From positions 1 through 50,946 of the IMG/VR virus record IMGVR_UViG_3300008954_000074: 50,946 nt of DNA; one strand, written 5' to 3'. Origin of the DNA: a virus. The notes under the pieces were generated by a model. It was not told where the DNA came from. It worked only from the letters and a program-made list of their open reading frames with translations, and ran no database searches. This document shows, one piece after another, positions 5,798 through 42,507 of the stretch. A program made the position numbers and the translations under genes. Position 1 is the stretch's first letter; every line of letters begins with the position of its first letter.

Positions 5798-6436
5798 ATG
5801 AAGACTATCACAAGATTATGTCCAGGATGCAACAAAGAGCTTCACTATGCAAACAAACATAGTGTCAAACGAGCCAATCAAAATAATTCTCATTGCCTCT
5901 CGTGTAGCCAGAAAAAAGTAATGTCAAATCAGGATACAAGAGATAATCTGTCTAAGAAAAACAAGGGCAAAAAACTTTCAGAAGAACATAAGAGAAAAAT
6001 AAGCAAATCGAACATGGGAAGAAAAGGCTGCTGGCTTGGAAAAGAATTTTCACAAGAAATGTGTAAAAATATATCAAAAGCCAAGCTCGGAAAAAAGAAC
6101 GGAATGTTTGGAAAGAAGCACTCCGATAAAACAAAAATAGCAATGTCTAAAAGTCAAAAGAGAAGATGGGAATCAGAAGAGTTTAAAAATCTGCCGCACG
6201 AAAGAAAAGAGGAAAAACTATGGGGGTTCTTAGTAAGAGATCGTGCAAACTATAAATGTGAAAATTGCAATGCTGCTAATGACAAGCTTCATGCACATCA
6301 CATCAAACCAAAAAAGCAATTTCCTAGCATGCGGTTTGATGTTGATAATGGGATTCTTTTATGTGTAGATTGTCATGTTGAAGCACATAAAGTACTGGGT
6401 CAAGATTATCTTGAAGGTCTAATAAGAAGGATTTGA
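5798..6436 (+). CDS. HNH homing endonuclease with NUMOD3-type repeats
   Basis: 212 residues. Order of parts: a zinc site CPGCNKE...CLSCSQKK (8-37), lysine-rich DNA-binding repeats of NUMOD3 type (about 50-125: KKLSEEHKRKIS, GKKNGMFGKKHSDKTK), and an HNH domain at the C-terminus with YKCENCN, LHAHHIKPK and LLCVDCH. This is the layout of free-standing phage homing endonucleases. It is the only plus-strand gene for 25 kb on either side and its base composition is more A-rich than its neighbours, which fits a mobile insertion. Its end overlaps the convergent gene by 18 bases. Confidence 0.9.
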   Translation: MKTITRLCPGCNKELHYANKHSVKRANQNNSHCLSCSQKKVMSNQDTRDNLSKKNKGKKLSEEHKRKISKSNMGRKGCWLGKEFSQEMCKNISKAKLGKKNGMFGKKHSDKTKIAMSKSQKRRWESEEFKNLPHERKEEKLWGFLVRDRANYKCENCNAANDKLHAHHIKPKKQFPSMRFDVDNGILLCVDCHVEAHKVLGQDYLEGLIRRI

Positions 6437-7039: not shown

Positions 7040-7423
7040 TCAAGACCAAGCTGATACGTTTTTGCCACGTTGGCGAGCTTTGCGATTTTCACGATCTACC
7101 CAGTGTTCATCTGGTGCCACAGGAGCAGGTTGATGCTCTGGGCGAGGCGGTGTCTTCTCTGCACGAAGAGCAGATGCACGAGCTACATAATCATCTAGCA
7201 ATTTTGAATCACTTGATGCGATGACAACAACATTTGTGCCATTCATTTGTGGCGAGGTTCTTGCCTCAAGACCCTGATTGTGGACAAGGTCTGTTATAAG
7301 TTTTACCATTTCGATAGGACTATTGAACGGGAATACTTGAACACCCGCCTGATTGTCTTCGTTGATTACCTTTTCGATCTCTTCACGAATGATCTGACGT
7401 AATTGCTTGTTTGTTGTTTGCAT
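7040..7423 (-). CDS. Protein with N-terminal helical tag, 127 aa
   Basis: Residues 7-22 (QLRQIIREEIEKVINE) are the tag shared with about ten other products here. A compact alpha/beta region follows (VQVFPFNSPIEMVKLI..., TNVVVIASSDSKLLD) and then a Pro-rich, basic tail. A class A promoter lies at 7454-7483 and a ribosome site (gaggata) precedes the ATG. Function unknown; a virion-associated role is inferred from the tag only. Confidence 0.7.
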   Translation of the reverse strand: MQTTNKQLRQIIREEIEKVINEDNQAGVQVFPFNSPIEMVKLITDLVHNQGLEARTSPQMNGTNVVVIASSDSKLLDDYVARASALRAEKTPPRPEHQPAPVAPDEHWVDRENRKARQRGKNVSAWS

Positions 7424-10796: not shown

Positions 10797-11570
10797 TTAA
10801 GCCTTTAGATACTTATGATCATCAAGATCGATATGATAATTCTGTGTATCATCCGGATCTGAGATGCCGAACCTTAGGCGAATTACTGCCTGCTCTCGAG
10901 GAGAAAGTTTGCTCGTAGACGCTAGCACAATTCTTCTCATTTCATCTCTAGCAATCTTATCTTCTGCATTTTCAGACCAGATATCTTCAATTGAGCTGCC
11001 TAGTGTTCCATCACCAGAATCATTACGATACTTGGGAGCGTCAAGAGAAAGCGTAAACGCTGGAGCACTCATTGCTGCCTCAACTGAGGACTTTGTAGCC
11101 CCCAGAATATCTGCGATCTCATCGGCAGTCGGCAAACACCCAAACTCTTTTTCAAACTCTTTACTAGCAACATGAATCTTTGCAGATAAGCCTTGGGCAT
11201 GAGATGGAATTCGAATACTGCGACTGTGCATTTGGATATGGCGGCCTACTGCTTGACGAATCCACCAGTGTGCATAGGTTGAAAATCTAAATCCCTTTGT
11301 AGGGTCAAATCGCTCAACTGCGCGCATCAATCCGATGTTTGCTTCTTGGATTAGATCTTCAAGATCTGTGCCTTTTTTCTGCATTTTCTTGGCAACAGAT
11401 ACTGCGAGTCGTAGATTTCGTTGAATCAAGATATCTCGAGCTCTCTTATCACCCTTTCGAGATTGAATTGAAAGATCAACCTCTTCACTCCTTGTAAGGA
11501 GGCGGTCTTTTCCAATTTCTTTTAGGTATCGACCCAAGCCTGAGGCGTTTGATTTTGCTGCGATAGCCAC
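10797..11570 (-). CDS. Sigma-70 family factor lacking region 4.2
   Basis: 257 residues. Region 1.2/2 is clear: SGLGRYLKEIG, NLRLAVSVAKKM, then DLIQEANIGLMRAVERFD and FRFSTYAHWWIRQAVGRH (about 72-114), which contact core polymerase and the -10 box. Region 3 follows (IRIPSHAQGLS, LPTADEIADILG). Region 4.1 begins (LSPREQAVIRLRFG), but the chain ends 20 residues later with no -35-binding helix-turn-helix. Group 1 or 2 sigmas are normally longer. Such a factor would favour promoters recognised mainly by the -10 element, as T4 gp55 does. Confidence 0.88.
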   Translation of the reverse strand: MAIAAKSNASGLGRYLKEIGKDRLLTRSEEVDLSIQSRKGDKRARDILIQRNLRLAVSVAKKMQKKGTDLEDLIQEANIGLMRAVERFDPTKGFRFSTYAHWWIRQAVGRHIQMHSRSIRIPSHAQGLSAKIHVASKEFEKEFGCLPTADEIADILGATKSSVEAAMSAPAFTLSLDAPKYRNDSGDGTLGSSIEDIWSENAEDKIARDEMRRIVLASTSKLSPREQAVIRLRFGISDPDDTQNYHIDLDDHKYLKA

Positions 11571-14685: not shown

Positions 14686-14760
14686 TGGCTGGAGAGGAGG
14701 GGCTCGAACCCACAACCACAAAGTTAACAGCTTCGCACTCTTCCATTGAGTTACTCTCCA
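14686..14760 (-). tRNA. tRNA-Asn (GUU)
   Basis: The loop CTGTTAA gives GUU. The acceptor stem starts U1-A72 with discriminator G, as in bacterial tRNA-Asn, and CCA is encoded. Its 5' end overlaps the last ten bases of the homing endonuclease gene. Confidence 0.92.
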
Positions 14761-15455
14761 ATAAATTCGTTACTTAATTTTATCCACTTCTTTGTGTTTT
14801 TATAAAAATCTTTCCAAGGTATTCTTAGAACTTCCCATCCATTTTCTTTTAAACATTCATCTTTCCTTTTGTCTCTCTCTTTTACTTCATCGAACCGCTG
14901 ATGTTGAGCGCCGTCAATTTCTATGCATTTTTTAATCTCTGGCCACGCAAAATCGCAAGAATAAATAGATACTGGATATTCCATCTTAAACTTTTTGTTA
15001 TCAAACTCATTCTCGATAACTTGTTTAAAGAATTTTTCTGGCCAGCTTGGTTCATTATTCCATCTAGATCTTCCTATGTTCCAGGCCCTGCCTTCTGCAT
15101 GAGCAGATTTCATTCCATTTGATATTTTCTCTTTATGTAACTCAGATAGCGGAATGCTTTTTACAATTATTTCACCAGAAGCAATTTTCTTTTTATACGT
15201 TTCTCCGGCCTTCTTGAGGCTTGGGTGCATTTCTTTTGTTAGTCCTTTATTCCAGGCTGTTCTTGTTCCGTTTGCATAGCCCTGATTGTTGATTGAGTTT
15301 TTGTTAAATTCCTGACCTTGAGCAGAATGATTACGCCAAATATGTGTACTGATTCCGCGTTTTACATACGATTTTTCACAATACGGACAATCATATAGAC
15401 CGTCTTTGTTTTTCCATTCTTCTTTTATTCTTAGTTGACTTTTTTCACTTATCAT
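14751..15455 (-). CDS. Vsr-like homing endonuclease inside the tRNA cluster
   Basis: About 234 residues. The N-terminus has a C2H2 finger (YDCPYCEKSY...THIWRNH). The middle has NUMOD3-like repeats (NKGLTKEMHPSLKKAGETY). The C-terminus has a Vsr/EDxHD-type nuclease core: YSCDFAWPEIKKCIEIDG, AQHQRF and ENGWEVLRIPWKDF. These free-standing enzymes cut a neighbouring site and spread by repair. Its stop codon lies inside the tRNA-Asn gene, so the tRNA end may be the insertion target. Class B element upstream at 15474. Confidence 0.85.
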   Translation of the reverse strand: MISEKSQLRIKEEWKNKDGLYDCPYCEKSYVKRGISTHIWRNHSAQGQEFNKNSINNQGYANGTRTAWNKGLTKEMHPSLKKAGETYKKKIASGEIIVKSIPLSELHKEKISNGMKSAHAEGRAWNIGRSRWNNEPSWPEKFFKQVIENEFDNKKFKMEYPVSIYSCDFAWPEIKKCIEIDGAQHQRFDEVKERDKRKDECLKENGWEVLRIPWKDFYKNTKKWIKLSNEFIGE

Positions 15456-15473
15456 AATCACCTACCTCTAATA

Positions 15474-15956: not shown

Positions 15957-16032
15957 TGGTGCCGGTTGGAGGAATCGAGCCCCCGGCCTTCTGGTTACAA
16001 ATCAGATGCTCTTCCAACTGAGCTAAACCGGC
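15957..16032 (-). tRNA. tRNA-Thr (UGU)
   Basis: The loop TTTGTAA gives UGU. Acceptor GCCGGTT/AACCGGC is perfect; one A-C mismatch closes the anticodon stem. CCA is encoded. It lies six bases from the candidate structured RNA. Confidence 0.9.
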
Positions 16033-16037
16033 AAAAT

Positions 16038-16188
16038 GACCCCTGGGTTCTACTTGGTTTTTAAGCTGGTTAAGTAGTAACCCAGCATTTAACTAATAGT
16101 GTTTCGATCCCCGCCAGGATCAGGAAGCATGATAGGATGGCGGTCCCACCAAAACTCCCTTGGAGGCGTAATATGAATGCCAGGGGTC
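16038..16188 (-). ncRNA. Candidate 151-nt structured RNA
   Basis: GACCCCTGG at one end and CCAGGGGTC at the other form a perfect 9-bp closing helix. Inside on the minus strand are further hairpins: GATCC/GGATC with a 6-nt loop, GGTGG/CCGCC, and CTGGGTTA/TAACCAG with a one-base bulge. No protein frame fits. A class B promoter element (ATATTTAT) ends five bases before the first G, the right distance for transcription to begin at the helix. It lies between tRNA-Thr and the methyltransferase gene and is not a tRNA or any RNA family I recognise. Confidence 0.55.
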
Positions 16189-16192
16189 CAAC

Positions 16193-16200
16193 ATAAATAT
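16193..16200 (-). promoter_or_regulatory. Class B promoter candidate for the structured RNA
   Basis: ATATTTAT then GTTG then the first base of the closing helix. The spacing puts the transcription start at or within two bases of the helix. Confidence 0.5.
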
Positions 16201-16233
16201 TACTCAATATGCATAAATTATATTATGCTGCCA

Positions 16234-16851
16234 TTATTTGTTTAAATCTTTTTTAGGACCCCACGTGCCCGTTTGATTTCCTTCTGCAACCCACCCGGGC
16301 CGGGAGGTTCGTGAATAGAGCTCAAGATAGGGACCAGCACTTCTCTTCTCAACATACTCATAGAATGCATCAGGCTTACGAGAATGCTCGCGACGTGGTT
16401 CAATGATGTAATCTCGAGATGAGCATAATCCTTTCCCGTTAACAACATTCTCAGGATCCTCAGTGCCACTGTAGCGTGTGTTTTTACCCATGCCTTTTCG
16501 ATACCTGACACCGAAGATGCACATCTCAGTATGCCTCATGCCATATGGCGTGGGACTTCCTGCGCCGTTCTTGACCCACGGAATCAAGGTTACCGGGGTG
16601 AAGCCAAGCTTCTTGCAAAGCTCCATTCCCGGAATGATACCCTGATCTTTTCCCGCTGTGAATGAGTTGATCGTCCACAGGTAAAGGTGTGCCTCGGGTG
16701 CAACTTCATGTTTGTCAAACCAACCTTCAAGCGTTGCCAGAACTTGATGACGATTCTGAACGTCGTAATGTGTTGATGGTGCCAGTGTCTTGTGTCCTAC
16801 TCCACCTGTTGTCTTCTTCCAGGGCGGATCAATTAGAACTGTCTTGAACAT
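16234..16851 (-). CDS. MT-A70 family adenine N6-methyltransferase
   Basis: 205 residues. DPPW at residues 8-11 is the catalytic motif of the MT-A70 family. PYGMRHTEMCIFGVRY and a C-terminal RPGWVAEGNQ complete the SAM-dependent fold. In phages such enzymes methylate adenine in DNA, often to resist host restriction; an RNA substrate cannot be excluded. Its start codon overlaps the stop of the upstream gene (TAATG). Confidence 0.88.
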   Translation of the reverse strand: MFKTVLIDPPWKKTTGGVGHKTLAPSTHYDVQNRHQVLATLEGWFDKHEVAPEAHLYLWTINSFTAGKDQGIIPGMELCKKLGFTPVTLIPWVKNGAGSPTPYGMRHTEMCIFGVRYRKGMGKNTRYSGTEDPENVVNGKGLCSSRDYIIEPRREHSRKPDAFYEYVEKRSAGPYLELYSRTSRPGWVAEGNQTGTWGPKKDLNK

Positions 16852-17724: not shown

Positions 17725-18096
17725 CTATGATACCTTTCGCCAAATAAGAGTTCCTGACTTGGTTGAGCTTTCTACATCTAGCTCAAAGTCTCCCAAATAC
17801 GAATAAGATCCATTGATTTTTCCGAATGCCTTGCGGAAATGTCTCCGACTGACTGGGATATCGCTGTTTTGCTTTTGATTTAGAACAGCAAGCAATCTCT
17901 GCTTATTGTCTGTCGTTAGACCGGTCTCTTGAATTACATTTCCTCTATATGTATTTTTCCACCCAGGGCTTGGATTGCTAATCTTAGGAAACCAGAATGC
18001 CTCTCCTGATTTTTTGTGCTTTAGGACTGACATTTGTGCTCCGGCATGATCACTACCATACGCGTTCATTACTGCTGCCATTGTTTTGTAACTCAT
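17725..18096 (-). CDS. Hypothetical protein, 123 aa
   Basis: A mixed alpha/beta protein beginning MSYKTMAAVMNAYGSDHAGA with a basic second half (PVSRRHFRKAFGKING). Its start abuts the stop of the short coiled-coil gene. No family recognised. Confidence 0.65.
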   Translation of the reverse strand: MSYKTMAAVMNAYGSDHAGAQMSVLKHKKSGEAFWFPKISNPSPGWKNTYRGNVIQETGLTTDNKQRLLAVLNQKQNSDIPVSRRHFRKAFGKINGSYSYLGDFELDVESSTKSGTLIWRKVS

Positions 18097-22166: not shown

Positions 22167-22577
22167 TTATAAAGTTTGGAGGTATGCAATTAGGGCTGTT
22201 ATTTCTGCATCAGGAATCTTTATAAATTTCTTTATAGGATCTGGGTGAATTGGAAGTATGTGTGTTGCCATCTCTGTTGACGGCTTGACTGATTGTGGAT
22301 CTGTTAGCCACTTTCTCAGATTGTCAGGCGTGTTTGGCAGTGTTCCTGCAATTGTCTTTCTATGAGAGAACCCAATTAAATGCGGTGCATTATGCATGCC
22401 TGCAGTATGACATGTTGAACAATTTACTGTTCCGTCGCCATAAAAAATTGCCTTTCCTCTTTCAGATAAAGTTATACCGGATATAGTGTCAATATTTGCT
22501 GAAGTTTTTGCTTCCACCTCTGGGATTGCAGGCATGCAAGATGCTATTAAAAATAAGATTATTAGTCTGGTTGTCAA
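22167..22577 (-). CDS. c-type cytochrome lipoprotein
   Basis: 136 residues from a TTG start eight bases after AAAGG. IASC at 11-14 is a lipobox. CSTCHT (53-58) is the CxxCH haem-binding site; Met103 in KPSTEMATH is the probable second axial ligand. The segment HRKTIAGTLPNTPDNLRKWL and the end ITALIAYLQTL closely resemble the cytochrome c domain of caa3-type oxidase subunit II. The product would be an outer-leaflet or periplasmic haem protein needing host Ccm machinery. Such a gene is very unusual for a phage. Confidence 0.85.
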   Translation of the reverse strand: MTTRLIILFLIASCMPAIPEVEAKTSANIDTISGITLSERGKAIFYGDGTVNCSTCHTAGMHNAPHLIGFSHRKTIAGTLPNTPDNLRKWLTDPQSVKPSTEMATHILPIHPDPIKKFIKIPDAEITALIAYLQTL

Positions 22578-22614
22578 TTGAAAAACCTTTCTGGCTGAAG
22601 TTTTCTTTTAATTA

Positions 22615-23187
22615 TTAAGATTTATTATAGTCTTGTATGACACTTTTCAAAATATCGTAAAACTTTATGGCGCCCTTTGCGCAATTCTCTTTCCATTGAT
22701 TAGCTGCATTTTCATCTGCGCCATCTGTGATATATTTGTATGATACGAAATCGACGCTAGATAGATGGCATGATTTTGCTATGGCATATGCTTCCATGTC
22801 TACTACGTCGCATTCTAGTTTATCTGACGCAGCCACGAAGTTATCTCCGGTTCCACACACCATATTCATATTACCACTCGAGGAAAACTCTATGACTCTG
22901 GGTATGTCTTCTTCGAAAGGTGTAATGCCGTAGCCAAATCCAAGTGCATCAATATGCATGTCTCTTTGAATAAATTTATTACAATCAACTAATGTATGTG
23001 GTTTGATACTGTGACTTCCGGCGGTGCCAAAGTTGATGATGAGTTTAGGCTTGTATTGCTCAATGGCCTTTGCAGTGGTGAGAGCAGCATTAACCTTACC
23101 TACTCCGCTATAAATCACTGGAAGAACATCATCAAAAAGATCTTGTGTTTCATCTCTTAGAGCGCTGATCATTATGATATCAGTCAT
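22615..23187 (-). CDS. MTA/SAH nucleosidase-like enzyme
   Basis: 190 residues. GVGKVNAAL (29-37), INFGTAGS (51-58), CGTGDNFV (111-118) and DVVDMEAYAIA (127-137) are the purine nucleosidase signatures, with TDGADENAANQW near the end. It would split methylthioadenosine or S-adenosylhomocysteine to adenine plus a thioribose. It overlaps the APRT gene by eight bases, so product adenine can pass straight to that enzyme. Somewhat shorter than the usual 230 residues. Confidence 0.88.
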   Translation of the reverse strand: MTDIIMISALRDETQDLFDDVLPVIYSGVGKVNAALTTAKAIEQYKPKLIINFGTAGSHSIKPHTLVDCNKFIQRDMHIDALGFGYGITPFEEDIPRVIEFSSSGNMNMVCGTGDNFVAASDKLECDVVDMEAYAIAKSCHLSSVDFVSYKYITDGADENAANQWKENCAKGAIKFYDILKSVIQDYNKS

Positions 23188-23674
23188 ACGTTACTACACA
23201 TTTCGTGTCAAGGCTTCTATCATGAATAAACCTCAAGTCAATAAAGCAAAGTGAATCAACAACGTCATACCCGCAATCCTTTGCAAGTTGTTCTGCAGCA
23301 GTCAGGGTTCCGCCAGTAGCAACTACATCATCAACAATTACGACGCGACCGGAGCCGGCTTGCATTTCTAAGCTATCTGTGCCATACTCCAATGAATACT
23401 CAACTGACTTTACGGGCGGCGGAAGTTTTCCGGGCTTTCTTGCTAATATTACTCCCTTGCCAAGCTTGTATGCCAATGCTGACGCAAAGATATATCCTCG
23501 TGATTCAATACCTACGAAAGCATCGATGGTGTCAATATCAACGAGCTGCTCGGCCATTGCATCAATTAGCTCAGGAAACTTATCTGTCCCCAGTATTGAT
23601 GTGATATCTTTAAATCCTACGCCGGGCTTGGGCCAATCATTAACTTCTCTAATTAAGCTTTTGAAATTTATCAT
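23180..23674 (-). CDS. apt: Adenine phosphoribosyltransferase
   Basis: 164 residues. The PRPP loop VVIVDDVVATGGTL (111-124) and FVGIESRGYIFASALAY near 53-69 are typical of APRT, and the opening (VNDWPKPGVGFKDIT) matches the family. It converts adenine and PRPP to AMP in the cytoplasm. It is first in a unit with the nucleosidase, cytochrome and SspB-like genes. A TATAAT box lies upstream at 23698 but without the class A -35 block. Confidence 0.93.
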   Translation of the reverse strand: MINFKSLIREVNDWPKPGVGFKDITSILGTDKFPELIDAMAEQLVDIDTIDAFVGIESRGYIFASALAYKLGKGVILARKPGKLPPPVKSVEYSLEYGTDSLEMQAGSGRVVIVDDVVATGGTLTAAEQLAKDCGYDVVDSLCFIDLRFIHDRSLDTKCVVTYD

Positions 23675-23729: not shown

Positions 23730-23894
23730 TTAATAATAATCGTTACCGTCGTCGAAGTGCAGTGCATAGTGATCATCTACTGTGTCATCGACCTGCTTTT
23801 GCACAATCTCTTTGATGATTACGGGTAGGATCTCTTGGACCTTCTTTGTGACCTCTGCGATTATTGCCTGCCTTAGTTTTTCATCTATTTTCAT
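23730..23894 (-). CDS. Tag-like small protein, 54 aa
   Basis: ATG at 23894, overlapping the end of the 488-aa gene in another frame. KLRQAIIAEVTKKVQEILP is close to the helical tag, and the remainder is an acidic tail. It may be little more than the tag itself. Confidence 0.55.
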   Translation of the reverse strand: MKIDEKLRQAIIAEVTKKVQEILPVIIKEIVQKQVDDTVDDHYALHFDDGNDYY

Positions 23895-25347
23895 TTTGGA
23901 TTCTTTTCATTTCTCTGAGTATTATTTGGTTTAGCTGGGCTGGTGTAACTTGGCGGGATTCACTAACAGCAGAAGAAGCGGGTGTAATTTTTATGTCAGG
24001 ATTTCCCGGGGTCGATATAGTTGTTTTGTTTTTACCTCTGAGATCTTTGGCATTCTGTATGAGGTCGGCCCATGTAATATTTATTGTGACTGTTTTAAAC
24101 AAATCAGAACCGGTTATTTCAATAGAGTCTGGTTTACCAACGATTTTTTTAAAGCTTATATTGCTTATATTAGATCCGAATACTGTGGCCTTGTAAGGCT
24201 TTCCGTCTAGAATTAATCGATCTTCAGTAACTTTCATTTTCATACCCTCAATATCAAACTCTTTATTCATGAGATTGCCTTGCGGATATTTTAATTTCTT
24301 CTTTGCTGCGGGCTCTTTAGCTATCTCTTTTTCTTTTTTAACAACTTCGGGTTCTTCTTCTTTTTTAGTCTTAGCATCTGATACAGTTCCGAAATACGGC
24401 ATCTTAAGCTCAGATGCCAATATATCTGATTCTTTCTTTGCTAGATCATCGACCTTTTCCCATGAGCCTAGCTTATCATATATTCTTTCAGATAAGTCTA
24501 GAGCCCGCATTTGAATTTCTCGAGGAAGAGATTTATTAAAAATTAGTTTTAGTGCTGCATCCAGACGAGCTGACGCTCCCGAAATGGGATCATCAGATAA
24601 CTGCATAAAGCTATAGCCCATATTGATCGGCTTGTAGATTTCTTTGTCATATTGTTTTGATATGATTTTTTTAACTGCATCTCTAAACAGCGACTTTGTA
24701 TCATCGTTTTCAGCGAAGCTCTTTATATATTTTTTAACCTTCGGGTCAATTCCCGTGGTATTATTTTTAATATAGTATCGAAGTGATCCTCGAGGAAACG
24801 TGTTATCAATCTTTTGATCTTTACCGCCTATTCCGTCTTTTTTGGCCTTCTTCTTACCTCTAATTGTTGGGTCTTGCATCGGCTCTTGATCTGTAAAGTC
24901 TAGCTTAGATTTCTTCTCATGCTTCTTCTCAGCTTCAGTTACCCGCTGGCAAATTAAATCTGCACCGCCGAGTGTCTTTCGAAGAATCTCCCAGGAATCT
25001 TGCCCTTTGAGCTTTCCTCTTTTCCAGATGTATTTATCTTTTTCTAGTGTTCTTTGTCTTTGGCCGGCGGTTATCTTCTTCCACTTATTGCGAAACTTTC
25101 TTTTTGCGAGCTTAGAAAATCCCGTTACTTTAAACTTTATACCCTCGGGATCATCGCATGGATCTCCGACAATTGTATATTCAAACGGATCACCTTTCAT
25201 CTTGTCACGAAATGGGCCGCGATCGGCAGACATAATGCGGGAATCTTCAGATTTTAGCTTTCGTTTTTTTGATACAGATTTCTCATCTTGTTCTGACAGC
25301 AATTGTTTAATTTCATTTTGAACTATGTTTCGAAGTGTTGTATTCAT
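23881..25347 (-). CDS. 488-aa protein with helical tags at both ends
   Basis: The N-terminus TLRNIVQNEIKQLLSE and the C-terminus QLNQIILREMKRIQNE both carry the tag, with the body between. The first 250 residues are lysine-rich (KFRNKWKKITAGQRQR), followed by a helical region, a KKKLKYPQGN linker and a beta-rich C-terminal domain (KMKVTEDRLILDGKPYKATV). It sits in the probable structural block. No family recognised. Confidence 0.6.
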   Translation of the reverse strand: MNTTLRNIVQNEIKQLLSEQDEKSVSKKRKLKSEDSRIMSADRGPFRDKMKGDPFEYTIVGDPCDDPEGIKFKVTGFSKLAKRKFRNKWKKITAGQRQRTLEKDKYIWKRGKLKGQDSWEILRKTLGGADLICQRVTEAEKKHEKKSKLDFTDQEPMQDPTIRGKKKAKKDGIGGKDQKIDNTFPRGSLRYYIKNNTTGIDPKVKKYIKSFAENDDTKSLFRDAVKKIISKQYDKEIYKPINMGYSFMQLSDDPISGASARLDAALKLIFNKSLPREIQMRALDLSERIYDKLGSWEKVDDLAKKESDILASELKMPYFGTVSDAKTKKEEEPEVVKKEKEIAKEPAAKKKLKYPQGNLMNKEFDIEGMKMKVTEDRLILDGKPYKATVFGSNISNISFKKIVGKPDSIEITGSDLFKTVTINITWADLIQNAKDLRGKNKTTISTPGNPDIKITPASSAVSESRQVTPAQLNQIILREMKRIQNENR

Positions 25348-25358
25348 TTACTTGCCTG

Positions 25359-26285
25359 CTAGCTTAAGGCTTTTTTAAATTCTTTTGCTCCGGCGCCAAT
25401 TCTTTTCTCGAGCTTCGCTTTCATGTTATCTCTATTGTCTTTATTAGTTCGCTGGAGAATTCCTTTATAGCCTTTAAGAAGTCGATTATAGTGATTTATA
25501 AGCTTGATTCCGCGGGCTTCAGCAACATCTAGAAGTGTCGCATGGAGCTCAGATATTCTTCCTTCTTTTTTTGACTTTTTCGGAAGTGTTGACAAAACAT
25601 GCATTGCCATGTCTTTGTTTTTTATTTTATTGTTTAAAAACAAATAATTGATTCCATCAAGAACTGCTTTTTTGATTCCTTCTTTATTGAGATAGTCTAC
25701 GTGACTTTGTTTACTATTTCTTTTAATTGGGCCTTTGCTGATATCATAGCCTCGTGCATTCACGCTAGATTCTGCTTCGCTATCTTTACCCCCGACAGAC
25801 ATTTCTTTTTCTTCTGGTTCAGGTTTAGATTTTTTCTTTTTGGGCTTGCCTCTTGACATTCCCATTACTGCTCGTAAATCTATTAAGCGCTTCAAATCAT
25901 CTGCGATCGGCCCGAATTCCTCTTCTGCGAAATCTCCAGCAGCTTCATTCTCAATTTCAAGAATAAACTCATTAATAGCTTCTGACATTTTTATCATTGT
26001 CTTTGGGCCGGCCAAACCGTCGGGCTTTACTCCTAATTGACTTTGCGCTTTTCTAAGCTCTCTATCTGTATTTCTTCCAAAGATTCCATCAACATTGAGC
26101 ACGTCTTTTAAATCTTTTTCTAGATTATCTAGATCTATGTCTTCGTCATTATCAACATCGACAATAAAATTAATTGCAGACTGTAAAGTTTTGACATCGT
26201 CATGTGTAGGATTATATTTTGCCTCACTAAGGAGCTGGATCTCTTCGTTAATAATCTTTCTTAAGATCTTGCCTGACATTTTCAT
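25359..26285 (-). CDS. Tagged peptidoglycan-binding-domain protein, 308 aa
   Basis: The tag ILRKIINEEIQLLSEA is at 7-22. Residues 23-110 look like a PG_binding_1 domain (DVKTLQSAINF, VDGIFGRNTDRELRKAQ, PDGLAGPKTM). A basic, helical C-terminal half follows (KPKKKKSKPEP). It probably belongs to the virion and touches peptidoglycan during entry. Paralogous in layout to the protein at 27765. Confidence 0.65.
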   Translation of the reverse strand: MKMSGKILRKIINEEIQLLSEAKYNPTHDDVKTLQSAINFIVDVDNDEDIDLDNLEKDLKDVLNVDGIFGRNTDRELRKAQSQLGVKPDGLAGPKTMIKMSEAINEFILEIENEAAGDFAEEEFGPIADDLKRLIDLRAVMGMSRGKPKKKKSKPEPEEKEMSVGGKDSEAESSVNARGYDISKGPIKRNSKQSHVDYLNKEGIKKAVLDGINYLFLNNKIKNKDMAMHVLSTLPKKSKKEGRISELHATLLDVAEARGIKLINHYNRLLKGYKGILQRTNKDNRDNMKAKLEKRIGAGAKEFKKALS

Positions 26286-26753: not shown

Positions 26754-27179
26754 TTAAATGTTAATGCTATTTAAGTCTATTACAGATCCTTCTCCGAGAT
26801 CGTGAAGACTAAACCACCCTTTGGGTGCTTCAAGCACATACATGGCCGGGCCTTGTGATAGCATCTTCTTCTCAGACAGCGGGTTTCCTGTCTCAATATT
26901 CAGTATCTTGCCATGGATGTCAGCAAATGCTACGTCGAGAGGAATGTGTGTGTCCCGCATCCAAAATGATTGCTGGTCTGCCCATGGGAATACGAAGAGC
27001 ATACCCGTGTCTTGCGGAAGATCAGTTCGATGCATGAGGCCTTGCATTCTTGCTGCGTCAGTATTTGCAATCTCGCAATCAATCTTATGACCTTCGACAG
27101 TGATAATTTGATGTGAAAGTAATGCGGGCTGAGCATGCTCTTTAATTATCTTTTTCAAGCTACCCAGAGTGATTTTCAT
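26754..27179 (-). CDS. DUF192 family protein with helical tag
   Basis: The ATG at 27179 forms an ATGA overlap with the upstream stop, which settles the start. The tag-like SLKKIIKEHAQP comes first. ARMQGLMHRTDL, LFVFPWADQQSFWMRDTHIP and LDVAFADIHGKI are the DUF192 signature. That family is small, beta-rich and often exported; function unproven. Tag plus DUF192 suggests a virion-linked copy. Confidence 0.85.
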   Translation of the reverse strand: MKITLGSLKKIIKEHAQPALLSHQIITVEGHKIDCEIANTDAARMQGLMHRTDLPQDTGMLFVFPWADQQSFWMRDTHIPLDVAFADIHGKILNIETGNPLSEKKMLSQGPAMYVLEAPKGWFSLHDLGEGSVIDLNSINI

Positions 27180-27466
27180 TCTATGACACCCATTCGTTTC
27201 ATTGTTGCCCAAATTGCATTCATCTCATCATCCCAGTCATCATACCATTGCCAACCTGAGTCTTCTTCGCCGATATCTCTGGCAACTCTCTCTATGTCTT
27301 CCAGGAGGTTTCGAGTTCGAAGTGAATGATTGTCATCCTCGTAAATCTTTGCCCAGTCAAGCGTCGCTTTATACCAATGCCGAAGCTTAAGAAGCGCTTT
27401 TTTTCTTTCGTCATCATAAAGCGGCCACGTATCCATTGATATCATGGATGCTAACGCTGCGATCAT
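27176..27466 (-). CDS. RNL-family protein, member 4
   Basis: 96 residues with SLRTRNLLEDIERVARDI, Trp-rich DSGWQWYDDWDDE and a C-terminal MKRMGVIE in place of RLGI. It is 13 kb from the other three members and coupled by ATGA on both sides. Confidence 0.6.
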   Translation of the reverse strand: MIAALASMISMDTWPLYDDERKKALLKLRHWYKATLDWAKIYEDDNHSLRTRNLLEDIERVARDIGEEDSGWQWYDDWDDEMNAIWATMKRMGVIE

Positions 27467-27764: not shown

Positions 27765-28547
27765 TTACGGCATTTTGATCATAAGATCACCAGACATAAA
27801 CTTGTCTGACAATTGTGTTGGCTCTTCAATATCAAGGCTAGCGCCAGATCTGTCATGAATTTTAATTATCACTGGTTCGAGACCTTGCTTACCGCCAACT
27901 TTGACTTCGACTTCTTCGGGGCTGGATTTTACTATTTCTGCATCATCACCTTGACCCATTGCGCGGGCGACGGCCAAACGATCTTCTTCTGTGATACCTA
28001 CATCAACTTTGGTATCTCCGATTATCATACGTAAAGCATCAGCTACTGCAGCATCGCTTTCTTTATCGCCGGCAACTAAGTTAATTGTGGGCATTTCGAC
28101 CTCTGCAGGAGATAAATCTGCTACACCTTTGCGCCCAATAATCGGTCCATCTGTCAATAGAGCGCCCATAACATCTTCTGACGGCCACTCTTCAGCCTCA
28201 AGTGCAGATGCAAGTGCTGCGTAAGTTTCAGGACCTGCAACACCATCAACGGTAAGATTAGCATCTTTTTGAAATTGTGCAATAGCATTTGCAGTCTCTT
28301 TGCCGTAAATTCCGTCAGGCTTAGCTGAGTTTGGCTTTAATGTATTTAGCGTAGCTTGCAGTGTTACAACATCCTCGCGAGTTGGATTGCGTGCCTCAGT
28401 AAGAATCTTTTTAATTTGTGTTCTTATGATTCGTCGAACTTTTTGCTCAGCTAAGACTGTTTTGACCTCTTGGTTTTCAGATGGATCTTTAGCTTCGTTT
28501 AAAACTCCTGCCATCTTTAGCCAGCGATTATCATTATTATTACTCAT
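27765..28547 (-). CDS. Tagged peptidoglycan-binding-domain protein, 260 aa
   Basis: The chain opens RWLKMAGVLNEA, then the tag KVRRIIRTQIKKILTE at about 36-51, then a PG_binding_1 domain (DVVTLQATLNTL, PDGIYGKETANAIAQFQKDA, VDGVAGPETYAAL). The C-terminal half is acidic. Ribosome site aaaggag. Probably a virion protein engaging the cell wall. Confidence 0.7.
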   Translation of the reverse strand: MSNNNDNRWLKMAGVLNEAKDPSENQEVKTVLAEQKVRRIIRTQIKKILTEARNPTREDVVTLQATLNTLKPNSAKPDGIYGKETANAIAQFQKDANLTVDGVAGPETYAALASALEAEEWPSEDVMGALLTDGPIIGRKGVADLSPAEVEMPTINLVAGDKESDAAVADALRMIIGDTKVDVGITEEDRLAVARAMGQGDDAEIVKSSPEEVEVKVGGKQGLEPVIIKIHDRSGASLDIEEPTQLSDKFMSGDLMIKMP

Positions 28548-30904: not shown

Positions 30905-31216
30905 TTAATCACTAATCTCGAGCAATACTATGCCTTTTTTAAAGCCGCCTCGACTATCATGTTTGGTGGACTTCTCCTCGAGAACATCTTCGATTGTGAT
31001 CCCCATGTGTCGGCGGAACTCTTCGAGGATCTCAATAACGTCGGCAAATTCCTCTGCACACGGATCCTCGAAGAGCTCATTCACTTCCTCAAGCACTTTC
31101 TTCCTGAGGTATGACGTTAGCTCTTTGTCTTTGACCTTCCGGGTCTTGCACTTTTGTCCTGACCTTCGAATGATCTTCGGGATGTTATCGCGGACAAGCT
31201 TGTCATATTTCTTCAT
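30905..31216 (-). CDS. MazG-like nucleotide pyrophosphohydrolase
   Basis: 103 residues. KYDKLVRDNIPKIIRRSG at the start, then LRKKVLEEVNELFED and CAEEFADVIEILEEF give the EExxE...ExxD metal sites of the all-alpha MazG-type fold. It would hydrolyse an NTP or dNTP to the monophosphate; substrate unknown. Such genes are common in phages. Confidence 0.85.
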   Translation of the reverse strand: MKKYDKLVRDNIPKIIRRSGQKCKTRKVKDKELTSYLRKKVLEEVNELFEDPCAEEFADVIEILEEFRRHMGITIEDVLEEKSTKHDSRGGFKKGIVLLEISD

Positions 31217-32948: not shown

Positions 32949-33409
32949 TACGGGAAAAGTTTTCAAGACTTTCAATTCTACTCGGTCTATTAATAATAGC
33001 CGGATTCACTTACATCATCTCAGCTGACCAAAAGCCTGAGATCATCTTTGCCGCTGAGACCACATACTACATCCCGGGTAAGAACGGTCTTTGTGACTGG
33101 GTTGGGTACATTGAGAACGATGTTACTCGGGAACGCGGTAGCTTCTCACGTGTCTTCATCGGCATACCCAAAGCTGAGGTTCGAGGATCTATTGTTGGCG
33201 TGCTTGAGGTTCACGGTGACATTGCAGTCCTCTCATATAATTTAACTTCCCAGCAAAAAGCTTTGCCAGTTGTTATGATGGGTAATCTAGGGGGCAAAGA
33301 CACCCCGATCAAAAGCATTAGGTTTAGATGGCTTAAGAGCTCAGTCCTTACAATTCCTTTTTATAGCTCCCGGGAATCATGTATTAAAGGCATGGAGGAG
33401 CTAAAATGA
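32945..33409 (+). CDS. Membrane-anchored or secreted protein, 154 aa
   Basis: An N-terminal hydrophobic segment (LSILLGLLIIAGFTYII) precedes a beta-rich domain with two Cys (GLCDW, ESCIKG). It overlaps both neighbours by four bases. No family recognised. Confidence 0.7.
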   Translation: MIREKFSRLSILLGLLIIAGFTYIISADQKPEIIFAAETTYYIPGKNGLCDWVGYIENDVTRERGSFSRVFIGIPKAEVRGSIVGVLEVHGDIAVLSYNLTSQQKALPVVMMGNLGGKDTPIKSIRFRWLKSSVLTIPFYSSRESCIKGMEELK

Positions 33410-34668
33410 AATGGGCTGCGGTCGTTTCCATCTCAGTGGCATTGCTTCTTGCAGGGGCATGTGAAGATGATAAGCTTATCGCGCTTGACTGCACACCTGG
33501 CAGTATTCTATATTGTGACGGTGCTGGCCGGACGTGGGAAGATAAAAAAGTCAGAACCGGAATATGCTCGTGGGGCAAGCAGACATGCTCATACGCTGGG
33601 TGGTCAGAATGTGAAGGTGTCACCGACCCGACAGCAGAAGTTTGTGACGGCCTTGACAATGATTGTGATGGCGCAATTGACGAAGACTATCCAGAGCAAG
33701 CACAGCTTTGCGGTATGCAAGATGATATCGAATACGGTGTGGGCATATGCAGTCCCGGTGTCTGGATGTGCTATGACGGATACCTGAGGTGCGATGGTCA
33801 TGCTGGTCCGAGCCCTGAGGTTTGCGACAGCATTGACAATGATTGTAACGGTGTAGTTGATGATCAGCTTCCCAACACTACGATGGAAGTCTGCTATGAC
33901 GGTCCGCAGGAGACGATTCTTGTAGGTGAATGCAAGCCGGGTATTAGATATTGTGTTGACGGATCAATGGAGTCTGATTGCGTTGGCATGGTTTTGCCTT
34001 CCCCGGAACTTTGCGATGGCAAAGACAATGATTGTGATGGTGAGATTGACGAAGGCTTTGACACGGGCAGTGTTGACCTTACGTTTATCATTGATGTGTC
34101 CGGATCCTTTGACGATGAGATTGAACGAACCATTTACGGTATTGCTCCTCTGCTCGAAGACGATCTTACACGCAACTTTAAGTTCAGTCTCGTTGTGATT
34201 GGCTCTCATTCTATTCCGGGTGCCAACTACCTCGATGGCAAGATGAGATTGATTACAGACTTTGTGCCACGAGATGAGTTCTTGCAACATCTTGAGACTG
34301 CGCTAGAGATGGCAAGAAGTCGTGGAGGCGGTGATGAGCCATCGTGGGATGCTATTCGCTATGTCGTTGAGAACACCTTTAGATTATCATTTCGGCCTGG
34401 GTCAAACAAGGTTATCATTCTCATGACAGATGAAGAAGGCCAGACACATGATCTAGCAATCCCTCAACACAGAGAAGCAGAAGTAGGAGCCATTGTGGCA
34501 AACTCACCATTCATCGTGCACGTATATTCAGACAATGGATTCTATGATAGCTTTGATGATATCTTTAGGGTTCGAGACAACTTCCACCCGCTTGGTGATC
34601 ATCCTACAACCAATGAGGTATTTGAATCCTTGCGCAGGATCTTCCTCAATATCTGCACCGGTGGTTAG
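33406..34668 (+). CDS. MopE-repeat and von Willebrand A lipoprotein
   Basis: 420 residues. LLLAGAC (Cys19) is a lipobox. Three MopE-type calcium/metal repeats follow: VCDGLDNDCDGAIDE (79-93), VCDSIDNDCNGVVDD (139-153) and LCDGKDNDCDGEIDE (202-216). From 224 a vWA domain starts, with the MIDAS motif DVSGS (230-234) and a later LMTDEEGQ. Such surface proteins are typical of myxobacteria and relatives and mediate adhesion. Placed in a phage it may be a host-derived surface or receptor-modifying protein. Its stop overlaps the convergent protease gene. Confidence 0.88.
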   Translation: MKWAAVVSISVALLLAGACEDDKLIALDCTPGSILYCDGAGRTWEDKKVRTGICSWGKQTCSYAGWSECEGVTDPTAEVCDGLDNDCDGAIDEDYPEQAQLCGMQDDIEYGVGICSPGVWMCYDGYLRCDGHAGPSPEVCDSIDNDCNGVVDDQLPNTTMEVCYDGPQETILVGECKPGIRYCVDGSMESDCVGMVLPSPELCDGKDNDCDGEIDEGFDTGSVDLTFIIDVSGSFDDEIERTIYGIAPLLEDDLTRNFKFSLVVIGSHSIPGANYLDGKMRLITDFVPRDEFLQHLETALEMARSRGGGDEPSWDAIRYVVENTFRLSFRPGSNKVIILMTDEEGQTHDLAIPQHREAEVGAIVANSPFIVHVYSDNGFYDSFDDIFRVRDNFHPLGDHPTTNEVFESLRRIFLNICTGG

Positions 34669-35474
34669 CCAATTAGTCTAGCTACATCGGTATAGATTGC
34701 CAAGCCCATTAGTGCACAGACAAATAACAATCCTACGAAATGAAGCTTGCCTCGGACTGACATTGATATGCGCTTGCGAGTGATCCATTCATAGGTAGAC
34801 AGCATAATATGCCCGCCGTCCAATAGTGGTATAGGTAGTAGATTCATGGCGCCCAGATTGATTGAGAAGAAAGCGATCCACTGAATTAGGAATCCCCAGT
34901 CTTTAGTCTCCTCAGATTTCCTTACAGCTCTTTGCGTCTCATTATATATTGCTACTGGCCCGCCGAGATCTTCTTTCTTGACCCCGCTTTGCTTGAGGTG
35001 ACTAACTGCGCGACCGATTGATGCATACATGTCTTTCGTCATCCTATAGGACGCTTGAGCTGCAACCTTTGCATCTACCTCGTGAACTTTTACCATGACT
35101 CCGGCCGGGGTTTGATGCTCAACTTCAACCTTTTGACCATAGTAATAGCCAAAGAATAGTGCCAGAGGTAGTGCTAGGTTTACCACGGGACCCGCCACTG
35201 CAATTAGAATCCGCTTCCAAGGTTTACATCCCCAGAATGAATTAGGATCCTCTGCAAGGTTCTCATAATCATCGTCACCTTCCAGGCGAACGTATCCGCC
35301 GAGAGGTATAAGCGATAATCTCCACTCAGTTCCTCGTGCATTGAAGCTGAGGAGTTTGGGGCCGAAGCCGAGGGAGAATGTCTTGACTGGGATCCCTACT
35401 GACTTTGCAGCAAGGTAATGTCCAAATTCATGAACAAATACGACGAATGTAATAATACCGACGAATGTTAACAT
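34665..35474 (-). CDS. Site-2-protease (RseP-like M50) membrane protease
   Basis: 269 residues. HEFGH at 15-19 in the first membrane helix and NLLPIPLLDGGH at 211-222 supply the zinc ligands. LSLIPLGGYVRLEGDD and FWGCKPWKRILIAVAGPVVN are typical RseP segments. The usual periplasmic PDZ domains are absent or reduced to about 60 residues, so it is shorter than the 450-residue bacterial enzyme. RseP cleaves anti-sigma factors and signal-peptide remnants in the membrane; here it might alter the host envelope stress response. Confidence 0.9.
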   Translation of the reverse strand: MLTFVGIITFVVFVHEFGHYLAAKSVGIPVKTFSLGFGPKLLSFNARGTEWRLSLIPLGGYVRLEGDDDYENLAEDPNSFWGCKPWKRILIAVAGPVVNLALPLALFFGYYYGQKVEVEHQTPAGVMVKVHEVDAKVAAQASYRMTKDMYASIGRAVSHLKQSGVKKEDLGGPVAIYNETQRAVRKSEETKDWGFLIQWIAFFSINLGAMNLLPIPLLDGGHIMLSTYEWITRKRISMSVRGKLHFVGLLFVCALMGLAIYTDVARLIG

Positions 35475-35482
35475 ATTAATAA

Positions 35483-36499
35483 TTATCCTTTCGGGTGAGT
35501 AACTTCATAAACTTGCTCGTAAGCGTCTTCTAATTCTTTGCTAAGGGTTCTGGGAAATGTTACCCTTATTGTGACAACGTGATCGCCGCCGTTGACACCT
35601 TCACCTTTGAGACGAATCGTGTCTCCGGGCTTGGTGCAGTCAGGAATTACTAATCGCTTGGCCGGGCCGGCGACCGTTTCAATCTCTCTTCGGCAACCCA
35701 ATATTGATTCAGGTATAGAAATAACAACGCTGGTATGAATATCGTTTCCCACCCGCTTGAAGTTACCATGCTCACCTACTCTTACTTCTAGAAAAAGATC
35801 GCCAGGAGGTGAGCCTTTTACATTTTGATGTCCGTATCCCTTGACTTTGATTACGTTGTTATTTTCGACTCCTGCTGGGATGTTGACCTTGATAGACTCG
35901 TGTGTGTTTTTCAAGCCCTTGCCCAGACATGAATTGCATGGATTCGTTATATTTGTGCCTTTACCATTGCATTCCTCACATGTTCGTGTCATCTGGAAGA
36001 AGCCTTGCAAAAAAGTAGTGTTACCTTGCCCGTGACACTTCTTGCATACAGCCTTGACAGTCTTGTCTGTGCTTCCTGACCCATCGCATGTCTTGCATGG
36101 CACCATACGCTCAACCTTTAGATCGATTACTTTTCCTATCGCTGCTGCGAAGAAATCGATATTAAGTCGATAGCGAAGATTTGTAGGCTTTGGGTTCTGC
36201 TTGTAGCCTCGGCGACTTGTGAATAAATCTTCAAACCCGCCCGTAAACTGGCTAAAGAAATCACCGAAGCCTGGACCTGGAGGCGGGAACCCTTTTGGTG
36301 CAGGATTATCGTATGATTTTCTTTTGTCCTTATCGCCTAAGACTGTGTATGCTTCAGCGACTTCTTTGAACAGCTCTTCTGCGTTTGTCTCTTTTGAAGT
36401 GTCTGGGTGATATCTCTTAGCCAGGTTTCTATATGACTTTTTGATTTGTGCTTGAGTAGCATCTTTCTTTACACCCAAGATATCGTAATAGTTCTTCAC
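35483..36499 (-). CDS. dnaJ: DnaJ (Hsp40) co-chaperone
   Basis: 338 residues with the full class I layout. J domain at 1-65 with HPD at 31-33; a Gly/Phe-rich linker (PPGPGFGDFFSQFTGGF); four zinc motifs CKTCDGSG, CKKCHGQG, CEECNGKG and CNSCLGKG; then the C-terminal client-binding domains. It would recruit host DnaK. It starts six bases after the stop of a GDLV gene and ends nine bases before the site-2 protease. Confidence 0.96.
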   Translation of the reverse strand: MKNYYDILGVKKDATQAQIKKSYRNLAKRYHPDTSKETNAEELFKEVAEAYTVLGDKDKRKSYDNPAPKGFPPPGPGFGDFFSQFTGGFEDLFTSRRGYKQNPKPTNLRYRLNIDFFAAAIGKVIDLKVERMVPCKTCDGSGSTDKTVKAVCKKCHGQGNTTFLQGFFQMTRTCEECNGKGTNITNPCNSCLGKGLKNTHESIKVNIPAGVENNNVIKVKGYGHQNVKGSPPGDLFLEVRVGEHGNFKRVGNDIHTSVVISIPESILGCRREIETVAGPAKRLVIPDCTKPGDTIRLKGEGVNGGDHVVTIRVTFPRTLSKELEDAYEQVYEVTHPKG

Positions 36500-41065: not shown

Positions 41066-41524
41066 TTATTTGTCGAGGAATACGTCTTTTGCTGTGAATC
41101 GAATTTTCTTATCACTACCTGAATTCTTGCCGAATGCCTTGCGGTCGAATTCTTGTGCAGCAATCTCGTCTGGGTGCATCTCTTCTTCGGGCTCATCTTC
41201 GAAGCTATCTTGAATGAAATCATTAGCGAAAGCTAGGGCTTCCTCACCCATATCAGGCGGGATCCTGACATGGAGCAGGGCTTGGACAGCTATGTCAGCC
41301 GGCGTTGATCTGGAATGAATAGGATCATGAATAAGATTTGCCGCTGAATTTCTTATGGCATCTTTGATATCTTCGGGTAGATCAGCCTCGGGTGCAGCCC
41401 TATCTGCGTATTTACGATCGGCAAGTGTTTCATGCTCATCATCGTGCCAGTCGCTGCTCTCAGTCAAAACTCTCTTGAGCTCTTCCTGAATGATCTGTTG
41501 TAGTCTGCTTTTTGTGATCTTCAT
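41066..41524 (-). CDS. Tagged acidic protein, 152 aa
   Basis: The tag RLQQIIQEELKRVLTE is at 7-22. The body is acidic and mostly helical, ending with a basic RFTAKDVFLDK. First of three adjacent tagged genes in the order 42157, 41533, 41066. Confidence 0.7.
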   Translation of the reverse strand: MKITKSRLQQIIQEELKRVLTESSDWHDDEHETLADRKYADRAAPEADLPEDIKDAIRNSAANLIHDPIHSRSTPADIAVQALLHVRIPPDMGEEALAFANDFIQDSFEDEPEEEMHPDEIAAQEFDRKAFGKNSGSDKKIRFTAKDVFLDK

Positions 41525-41532
41525 GTTATTTT

Positions 41533-42150
41533 CTACATGCTTTCTGCTGCGTACAAGTTAAGCTGATATTCGTCGTCGTCAAAGGCGTATCGAAGCTCTT
41601 CTTGCTCATCCTGTTCAAATGAGTATAGAACCGAGGCAGCCAGATCTAAAGCTACATCCTCAAGGCTTGCATCTGGATTGTCCGCCATGTATTCTTCGCC
41701 GGCGATCTTTGCTCTTCGACTGAGTTCGTCTTTGAGCCTTCTGGGATCCAGCCGTTCTTCCTCTGCTTTGCGGGCAGCAGCGGCCTTTTCTCTTTCGGGT
41801 CTGTCATAGACATCATCGATGTGCGCCTCAAGCTTTTCAAAATCGGCCTTGCTCAGCTCGATGCTTCGTTCAGTTCCGTCTTTGTCGTCGACGATGACGG
41901 ACAGCCTAAGCTTTTCGATAAACTCATCGGCTTTGGCAGCAGGTATACCTCTTTGAGTGCCGGCGCCGATGTAAAGCACCTCGCCGGTTTCTACATCAAC
42001 GATATCAACCGTGTCGTTGTCGAGCTTGTCTGCCAAGTCCCTGAGTTCATCAGGGCTAAGTTCACCGTCACCGTCACTATCAGCTTCAGCCAGAACTCGT
42101 GTGAGCTCCTCGCGAATGATCTGCCTAAGGTTGCTGAGTGTTGTTTTCAC
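41533..42150 (-). CDS. Tagged protein with EF-hand loop, 205 aa
   Basis: The tag NLRQIIREELTRVLAE at 7-22 is followed at 24-35 by DSDGDGELSPDE, a perfect 12-residue EF-hand calcium loop, then helix LRDLADKL. A domain with ETGEVLYIGAGTQRGIP and a charged helical C-terminus follow. Calcium binding is predicted from the loop. Confidence 0.72.
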   Translation of the reverse strand: MKTTLSNLRQIIREELTRVLAEADSDGDGELSPDELRDLADKLDNDTVDIVDVETGEVLYIGAGTQRGIPAAKADEFIEKLRLSVIVDDKDGTERSIELSKADFEKLEAHIDDVYDRPEREKAAAARKAEEERLDPRRLKDELSRRAKIAGEEYMADNPDASLEDVALDLAASVLYSFEQDEQEELRYAFDDDEYQLNLYAAESM

Positions 42151-42156
42151 TTTCTC

Positions 42157-42507
42157 TTATTCCCCGTGAAACATTGCCTGAACTGCATCAAGCTCGCCCT
42201 TGACATATCTTAGGTCAGGGTCAAGTGAATTGTCACGATGATTTACAGAGTCATCTTCTAGCTTGAGCATTTGCTCCATAAACTCAGCGTCTTCTGCAGC
42301 GGCTGATTGCTCGTGTGCTGCGAGGCTCTGTGCTAACTCAGCAACTGCATCAAGTGCGCTATGTGCTTCGTCTAGATTGTCCATAAGTTGGGTGAGCAAT
42401 CCTACCTTGGCAGAATAGAACTCATTGGCTCCGTCTGCTGGTTGCTCATTTAGCTTTGATAGCTCTTCACGAATGATCTGACGAAGTGTGTTTGCTTTGA
42501 TTTCCAT
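42157..42507 (-). CDS. Tagged helical protein, 116 aa
   Basis: The tag TLRQIIREELSKLNEQ is at 7-22, followed by a long helical, alanine-rich region (AELAQSLAAHEQSAAAEDAE). A class B promoter is at 42535. Probably transcribed together with the next two tagged genes. Confidence 0.7.
   Translation of the reverse strand: MEIKANTLRQIIREELSKLNEQPADGANEFYSAKVGLLTQLMDNLDEAHSALDAVAELAQSLAAHEQSAAAEDAEFMEQMLKLEDDSVNHRDNSLDPDLRYVKGELDAVQAMFHGE

Follow-up and report, generated by a model that had tools for sequence, protein, structure and literature searches.

Between an MT-A70 gene and the tRNA-Thr gene of a marine phage, on the minus strand, we find a well-formed 151-nt element as a candidate small structured RNA from a tRNA operon, and we add to it two predicted tertiary contacts, both testable. 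We put at about even the chance that it is a non-coding RNA of the same kind as RNAC and RNAD of phage T4. The window (the whole stretch of DNA analyzed, 50,946 nt) holds ten tRNA genes by ARAGORN, the same ten being given by Rfam, and the count rises to 15 distinct tRNAs once the phage is extended to ~78 kb by two near-identical contigs. The tRNA-Thr gene starts 5 nt beyond the end of the terminal helix P1 of the element. Features are mapped in the table, where helices are also given in an RNA numbering whose position 1 is 16189.

Table. Map of the element, its surroundings and other features of the phage (window coordinates)
Feature	Position	Strand	RNA numbering	Remarks
Candidate structured RNA element	16038..16188	-		151 nt between P1 ends
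P1 5' strand	16180..16188	-	2-10	perfect 9-bp complement of 16046-16038
P1 3' strand	16038..16046	-	144-152	pairs with 16188-16180
P2 hairpin	16122..16160	-	30-36/62-68 and 39-46/53-60	7 bp, internal loop, 7-8 bp; pair probabilities near 1.0
Loop L2 of P2	16143-16138	-		CCGCCA
P3 hairpin	16106..16121	-	69-73/80-84	5-6 bp, directly abuts P2; pair probability 0.9
Loop L3 of P3	16116-16111	-		UGGCGG
Predicted L2-L3 kissing pairing	16111..16143	-		6/6 pairs, CCGCCA/UGGCGG; within or between molecules
P4 hairpin and predicted H-type pseudoknot	16050..16086	-	104-108/121-125 (P4)	GCUGG/CCAGC
P4 pseudoknot strands	16077-16072 / 16055-16050	-	135-140 (AAGUAG partner)	CUACUU/AAGUAG
Alternative leader hairpin P0	16168..16203	-		GUAAUAU 16203-16197, AUAUUAC 16174-16168
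ATATTTAT	16193..16200	-		first proposed as promoter element
Candidate promoter for element and tRNA-Thr	16217..16246	-		TTTAAA-N18-TATAAT, 10/12 consensus bases
tRNA-Thr (UGU)	15957..16032	-		ARAGORN; Rfam tRNA 65.2 bits
TTG-started 45-codon frame	16207-16070	-		crosses the element
Phage-class promoter examples	9356, 21722, 1674, 50714, 43571	-
Sigma-70 family protein	10797-11570	-		regions 1.2, 2, 3; region 4 only a trace (Pfam 4-18 of 50)
Strongest minus-strand folding window	31115-30961	-		z -6.3; within open frame 30905-31216
DUF559/MTES_1575-type endonuclease gene	14751-15461	-		within tRNA array
NUMOD3-HNH gene	5798-6436	+		outside tRNA array
SRA-domain protein and MT-A70 methyltransferase (in that order)	17725-18096 and 16234-16851	-		close together in tRNA array
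Genes with MKxTxxxLRQIIREELxxVL-like stretch	7040-7423, 23881-25347, 25359-26285, 26754-27212, 27765-28547, 41066-41524, 41533-42150, 42157-42507	-
Host-like genes	33406-36499 and 22167-23674

Predicted structure of the element

The minus strand of the element folds at -56.2 kcal/mol (minimum free energy), a z-score of -3.6, with none of 200 shuffles equally stable; the terminal helix is perfect, GACCCCTGG pairing fully with CCAGGGGTC. The first-pass annotation had proposed a 151-nt structured RNA with internal hairpins and a perfect 9-bp closing helix, lying amid tRNA genes without being a tRNA; all of this held up, ARAGORN and Rfam calling only the neighboring tRNA-Thr at this place. The plus strand folds less strongly (z -2.1), and G-U pairs of P2 (pairs 33-65, 36-62, 41-58 and 43-56) become A-C mismatches on that opposite strand; from these two observations we assign the RNA to the strand of the tRNA genes.

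Two features had escaped the earlier account, the complementarity of loops L2 and L3 and the pseudoknot of P4. The loops could pair at all six positions, and the arms that bear them, of about 15 and 5 bp, have no linker between them. The pseudoknot, which is read from strand complementarity and not from an energy calculation, would be joined by strands of 4, 2 and 9 nt, the longest of them being the A-rich crossing strand (UUAAAAACC).

Terminal helix, kissing pair and pseudoknot are largely independent features, and each is infrequent in shuffled sequence, although the descriptors were defined after the element had been seen and the counts thus overstate significance: the 9-bp terminal helix arose in 4 of 20,000 dinucleotide shuffles of the element, and an H-type pseudoknot of the P4 kind in 27 of 4,000. 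Among 400 shuffled 51-kb strands, 28 had adjacent hairpins with 6-bp complementary loops; such a pair enclosed by a closing helix of ≥7 bp was found twice among the 400, and never when ≥9 bp were required. With both strands scanned, the element is the sole instance in the window of a kissing-hairpin pair within a closing helix. Folding energy by itself does not single it out and is merely tRNA-like: by z-score (22 shuffles per folding window) it comes 15th among 677 minus-strand folding windows, at a level that the tRNA regions also reach. The strongest of these folding windows lies within an open frame elsewhere and exceeds the element.

Transcription

The first-pass annotation had also read ATATTTAT as a promoter element placed so that transcription would start at the helix. 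We rejected this: the word is weakly directional (9 forward versus 5 reverse occurrences), its distances to starts are scattered from 2 to 54 nt with no fixed spacing, and the promoter class of this phage is different. Word counts upstream of predicted genes define that class as TGTGYAAA, ~16-17 bases, then TATAATA. In ~78 kb the latter word has 41 forward and 8 reverse occurrences, mostly 15-37 nt ahead of starts, and a profile of the class finds 16 coding-strand sites above a score reached by none on the other strand. The phage encodes a sigma-70 family protein that either is a possible reader of these promoters or may be broken.

The best sigma-70-like site upstream of the element is TTTAAA-N18-TATAAT, with a modest score under the phage profile. 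From its sequence it is a likelier promoter than ATATTTAT, and a start ~7 nt past this predicted site would fall near 16210, ~20 nt ahead of the helix. We found no promoter-like site between the element and tRNA-Thr and no terminator-like site in the element region.

Search for relatives

At the element Rfam gave no family match, whether the curated thresholds were applied or the cutoff was relaxed to E 10, which is the outcome of the covariance-model search of known RNA families that the first-pass annotation had suggested as a check. A tRNA, including a split or intron-containing one, was rejected since ARAGORN and the Rfam tRNA model detect the neighboring tRNA-Thr and not the element; a CRISPR repeat was likewise rejected (16 bits versus a threshold of 45, E 0.57; single copy).

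The element is identical in a second contig, IMGVR_UViG_3300013119_000728, but the two contigs are about 99.8% identical across the whole region and so are uninformative on constraint. When a single-sequence covariance model was applied to the window, to fetched loci and to 71 complete virus records (chosen via FKBP, ligase or SNase genes or DNA words), it recovered only the element and this near-identical copy; the next-best matches, at 10-16 bits and E about 0.7 or worse, are at chance level, and one is inside a coding frame. We scanned all of IMG/VR for the gapped P1 helix and for three exact 16-17-mers, and GTDB genomes for an 18-mer; these scans returned scattered words, none supported by the model, and blastn against phages and plasmids gave nothing credible; a single-sequence model and exact words are sensitive only to fairly close relatives. 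In ~700 kb of related sequence, the descriptor of kissing hairpins within a closing helix picked out a single non-coding candidate, L095:8450-8900 (-), close to the end of a related contig of 191 kb. This region is rich in C and G and has several hairpins, and we rejected it as unrelated to the element.

Comparison with T4 RNAC and RNAD

In T4, RNAC (139 nt) and RNAD (119 nt) are packed against tRNA-Arg and share its strand. According to a review, the two RNAs are transcribed but have no known role (PMC3014915); RNA-seq, confirmed by Northern blot, identifies them as late RNAs (PMC9697503). Like them, the element is phage-encoded, of ~120-150 nt, not a tRNA, and tight on the strand of tRNA genes. 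A strong fold is found in RNAC (z -4.6), but RNAD, at z -0.8, folds no better than its shuffles, so a strong fold is not common to all RNAs of this kind.

The differences are also clear. The T4 RNAs have no detectable sequence or model similarity to the element, whose covariance model found no match in the T4 region; RNAC has a T-arm-like GGGTTCGAATCCC hairpin that the element lacks; and RNAC and RNAD follow a tRNA, whereas the element precedes tRNA-Thr. The likeness is thus one of kind and not of homology: the element is a structured RNA candidate within 100-160 nt, adjacent to tRNA genes and sharing their strand.

Other features of the phage

The DUF559/MTES_1575-type and NUMOD3-HNH genes are likely homing endonucleases; in T4, SegB is located in the tRNA cluster. 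The SRA-domain protein and the MT-A70 methyltransferase are a possible DNA-modification pair. Many otherwise different proteins have in common an MKxTxxxLRQIIREELxxVL-like stretch at or near their start. The host-like genes encode a MopE/VWA-type protein, an M50 protease, DnaJ, a nucleoside phosphorylase, a phosphoribosyltransferase and a protein with haem-binding motifs (cytochrome c-like, assigned by eye).

Discussion

We suggested above that the element may be a small RNA of the RNAC/RNAD kind. In its favor are the fold z-score, the rarity of its features among shuffles, its strand, its position just before tRNA-Thr and the promoter-like site upstream; we would add the T4 precedent, with its similar layout, its demonstrated transcription and the similar z-score of RNAC. 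Against it we count that our searches found no homologue whose covariation would point to selection on the pairs, and that the folding energy is ordinary for the window. In the pathway that we envisage, the sigma-70-like site (16246-16217) would give one transcript carrying the RNA and then tRNA-Thr, and RNase P, cutting at the tRNA-Thr 5' end, would free the 3' end of the RNA at about 16033. Trimming of the leader would then let the GC-rich P1 close the ends against nucleases, L2-L3 pairing and the P4 pseudoknot would compact the RNA into a stable particle, and the particle would act in trans, most likely via protein binding. We rejected an antisense role for the unpaired segments, which are no more complementary to the starts of phage genes than shuffles are.

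A further point against a separate small RNA is an equally stable fold, available to the leader-containing transcript, that lacks P1. Here the hairpin P0, one arm of which overlaps ATATTTAT, encloses the P1 5' strand, while CUGGGUU-A-CUACUU/AAGUAG-AACCCAG takes the place of P4 and of part of P1. Globally, these folds are near-isoenergetic (-56.8 for P0 and -55.8 for P1, 1 kcal/mol apart), which leaves two options: trimming of the leader, or an alternation that is in itself a feature. The second of these leads to an alternative that we regard as unlikely but deserving of weight, namely that the element serves in cis as the leader to the tRNA-Thr operon, the exclusive folds (P0 with the long hairpin, or P1 with P4) governing processing or read-through, and that no separate RNA is made. 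The element does stand directly ahead of the tRNA, and including the leader lowers the probability of P1 from 0.98 to about 0.4-0.5 for transcript starts at 16210-16205. The balance depends on the exact 5' end, however, with P1 back at 0.85 for a start at 16212, and two features that the folding program does not score, the L2-L3 contact and the pseudoknot, would favor the P1 fold. The leader reading is further disfavored in that no terminator-like site was found in the region, and we know of no case of leader control in a phage tRNA operon with which to compare it.

Rather unlikely, in our judgment, is a non-functional remnant, either a decayed gene or a small mobile element of miniature inverted-repeat-like form, with 9-bp repeats around ~133 bp. 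The ends are indeed a perfect inverted repeat, and finding no relative is to be expected if the DNA was inserted recently or is random intergenic sequence. A mobile element is opposed by the absence of a target-site duplication at the ends, by the single copy in the ~78 kb of phage read, and by the occurrence of the exact helix at about the same spacing in only two other IMG/VR contigs, neither of which matches the covariance model. The complementary loops and the pseudoknot would be left unexplained.

That the element is a short protein gene seems to us very unlikely. The first-pass annotation had stated that there was no coding frame; this was mistaken, as a TTG-started 45-codon frame (MSNIYVGPLAFILRLQGSFGGTAILSCFLILAGIETLLVKCWVTT, with a hydrophobic stretch) crosses the element on the coding strand. 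It shows no sign of coding in its sequence, with no Shine-Dalgarno before the TTG and no Pfam or PHROG match; we estimate that a frame of this length is expected by chance roughly 1 in 8 times per frame, and a protein gene would not account for the structure.

The pairing of L2 with L3 could also take place between molecules. Phage phi29 pRNA is a small RNA with paired ends and two arms bearing complementary loops; the element has these traits too, but phi29 is another type of phage, the arm layout is different, and no Rfam pRNA match was found. The GOLLD and ROOL phage RNAs, often near tRNA islands, form cages via kissing loops and other contacts (PMC12286853); found in phages and prophages, they resemble the element in their setting and in having no known function, and their kissing loops and pseudoknots have predicted counterparts in it (PMC12286853), but GOLLD is often >800 nt and ROOL also far larger, whereas the element is ~150 nt. 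A self-assembling RNA, forming a ring or chain through L2-L3 contacts as in these systems, is accordingly a long shot, the fully complementary loops on linkerless arms, where the geometry suggests that intramolecular pairing would be awkward, being outweighed by the failure to find homologues, or any Rfam match to pRNA, GOLLD or ROOL at the gathering threshold or E up to 10. More speculative still would be a new class of small phage RNA, made in a tRNA operon, released by tRNA processing and self-assembling via the loops of two unequal arms, as a minimal counterpart of GOLLD and ROOL.

The RNAC/RNAD-like small RNA is the reading that we carry forward, for an element that keeps the status of a candidate and is known from one lineage of uncultured phage. 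Small RNAs of the T4 tRNA cluster have been known for decades without a function. The element would offer a second, unrelated-looking case, with predicted closed ends, paired loops and a pseudoknot, and so a concrete object on which tests of such RNAs may be made.
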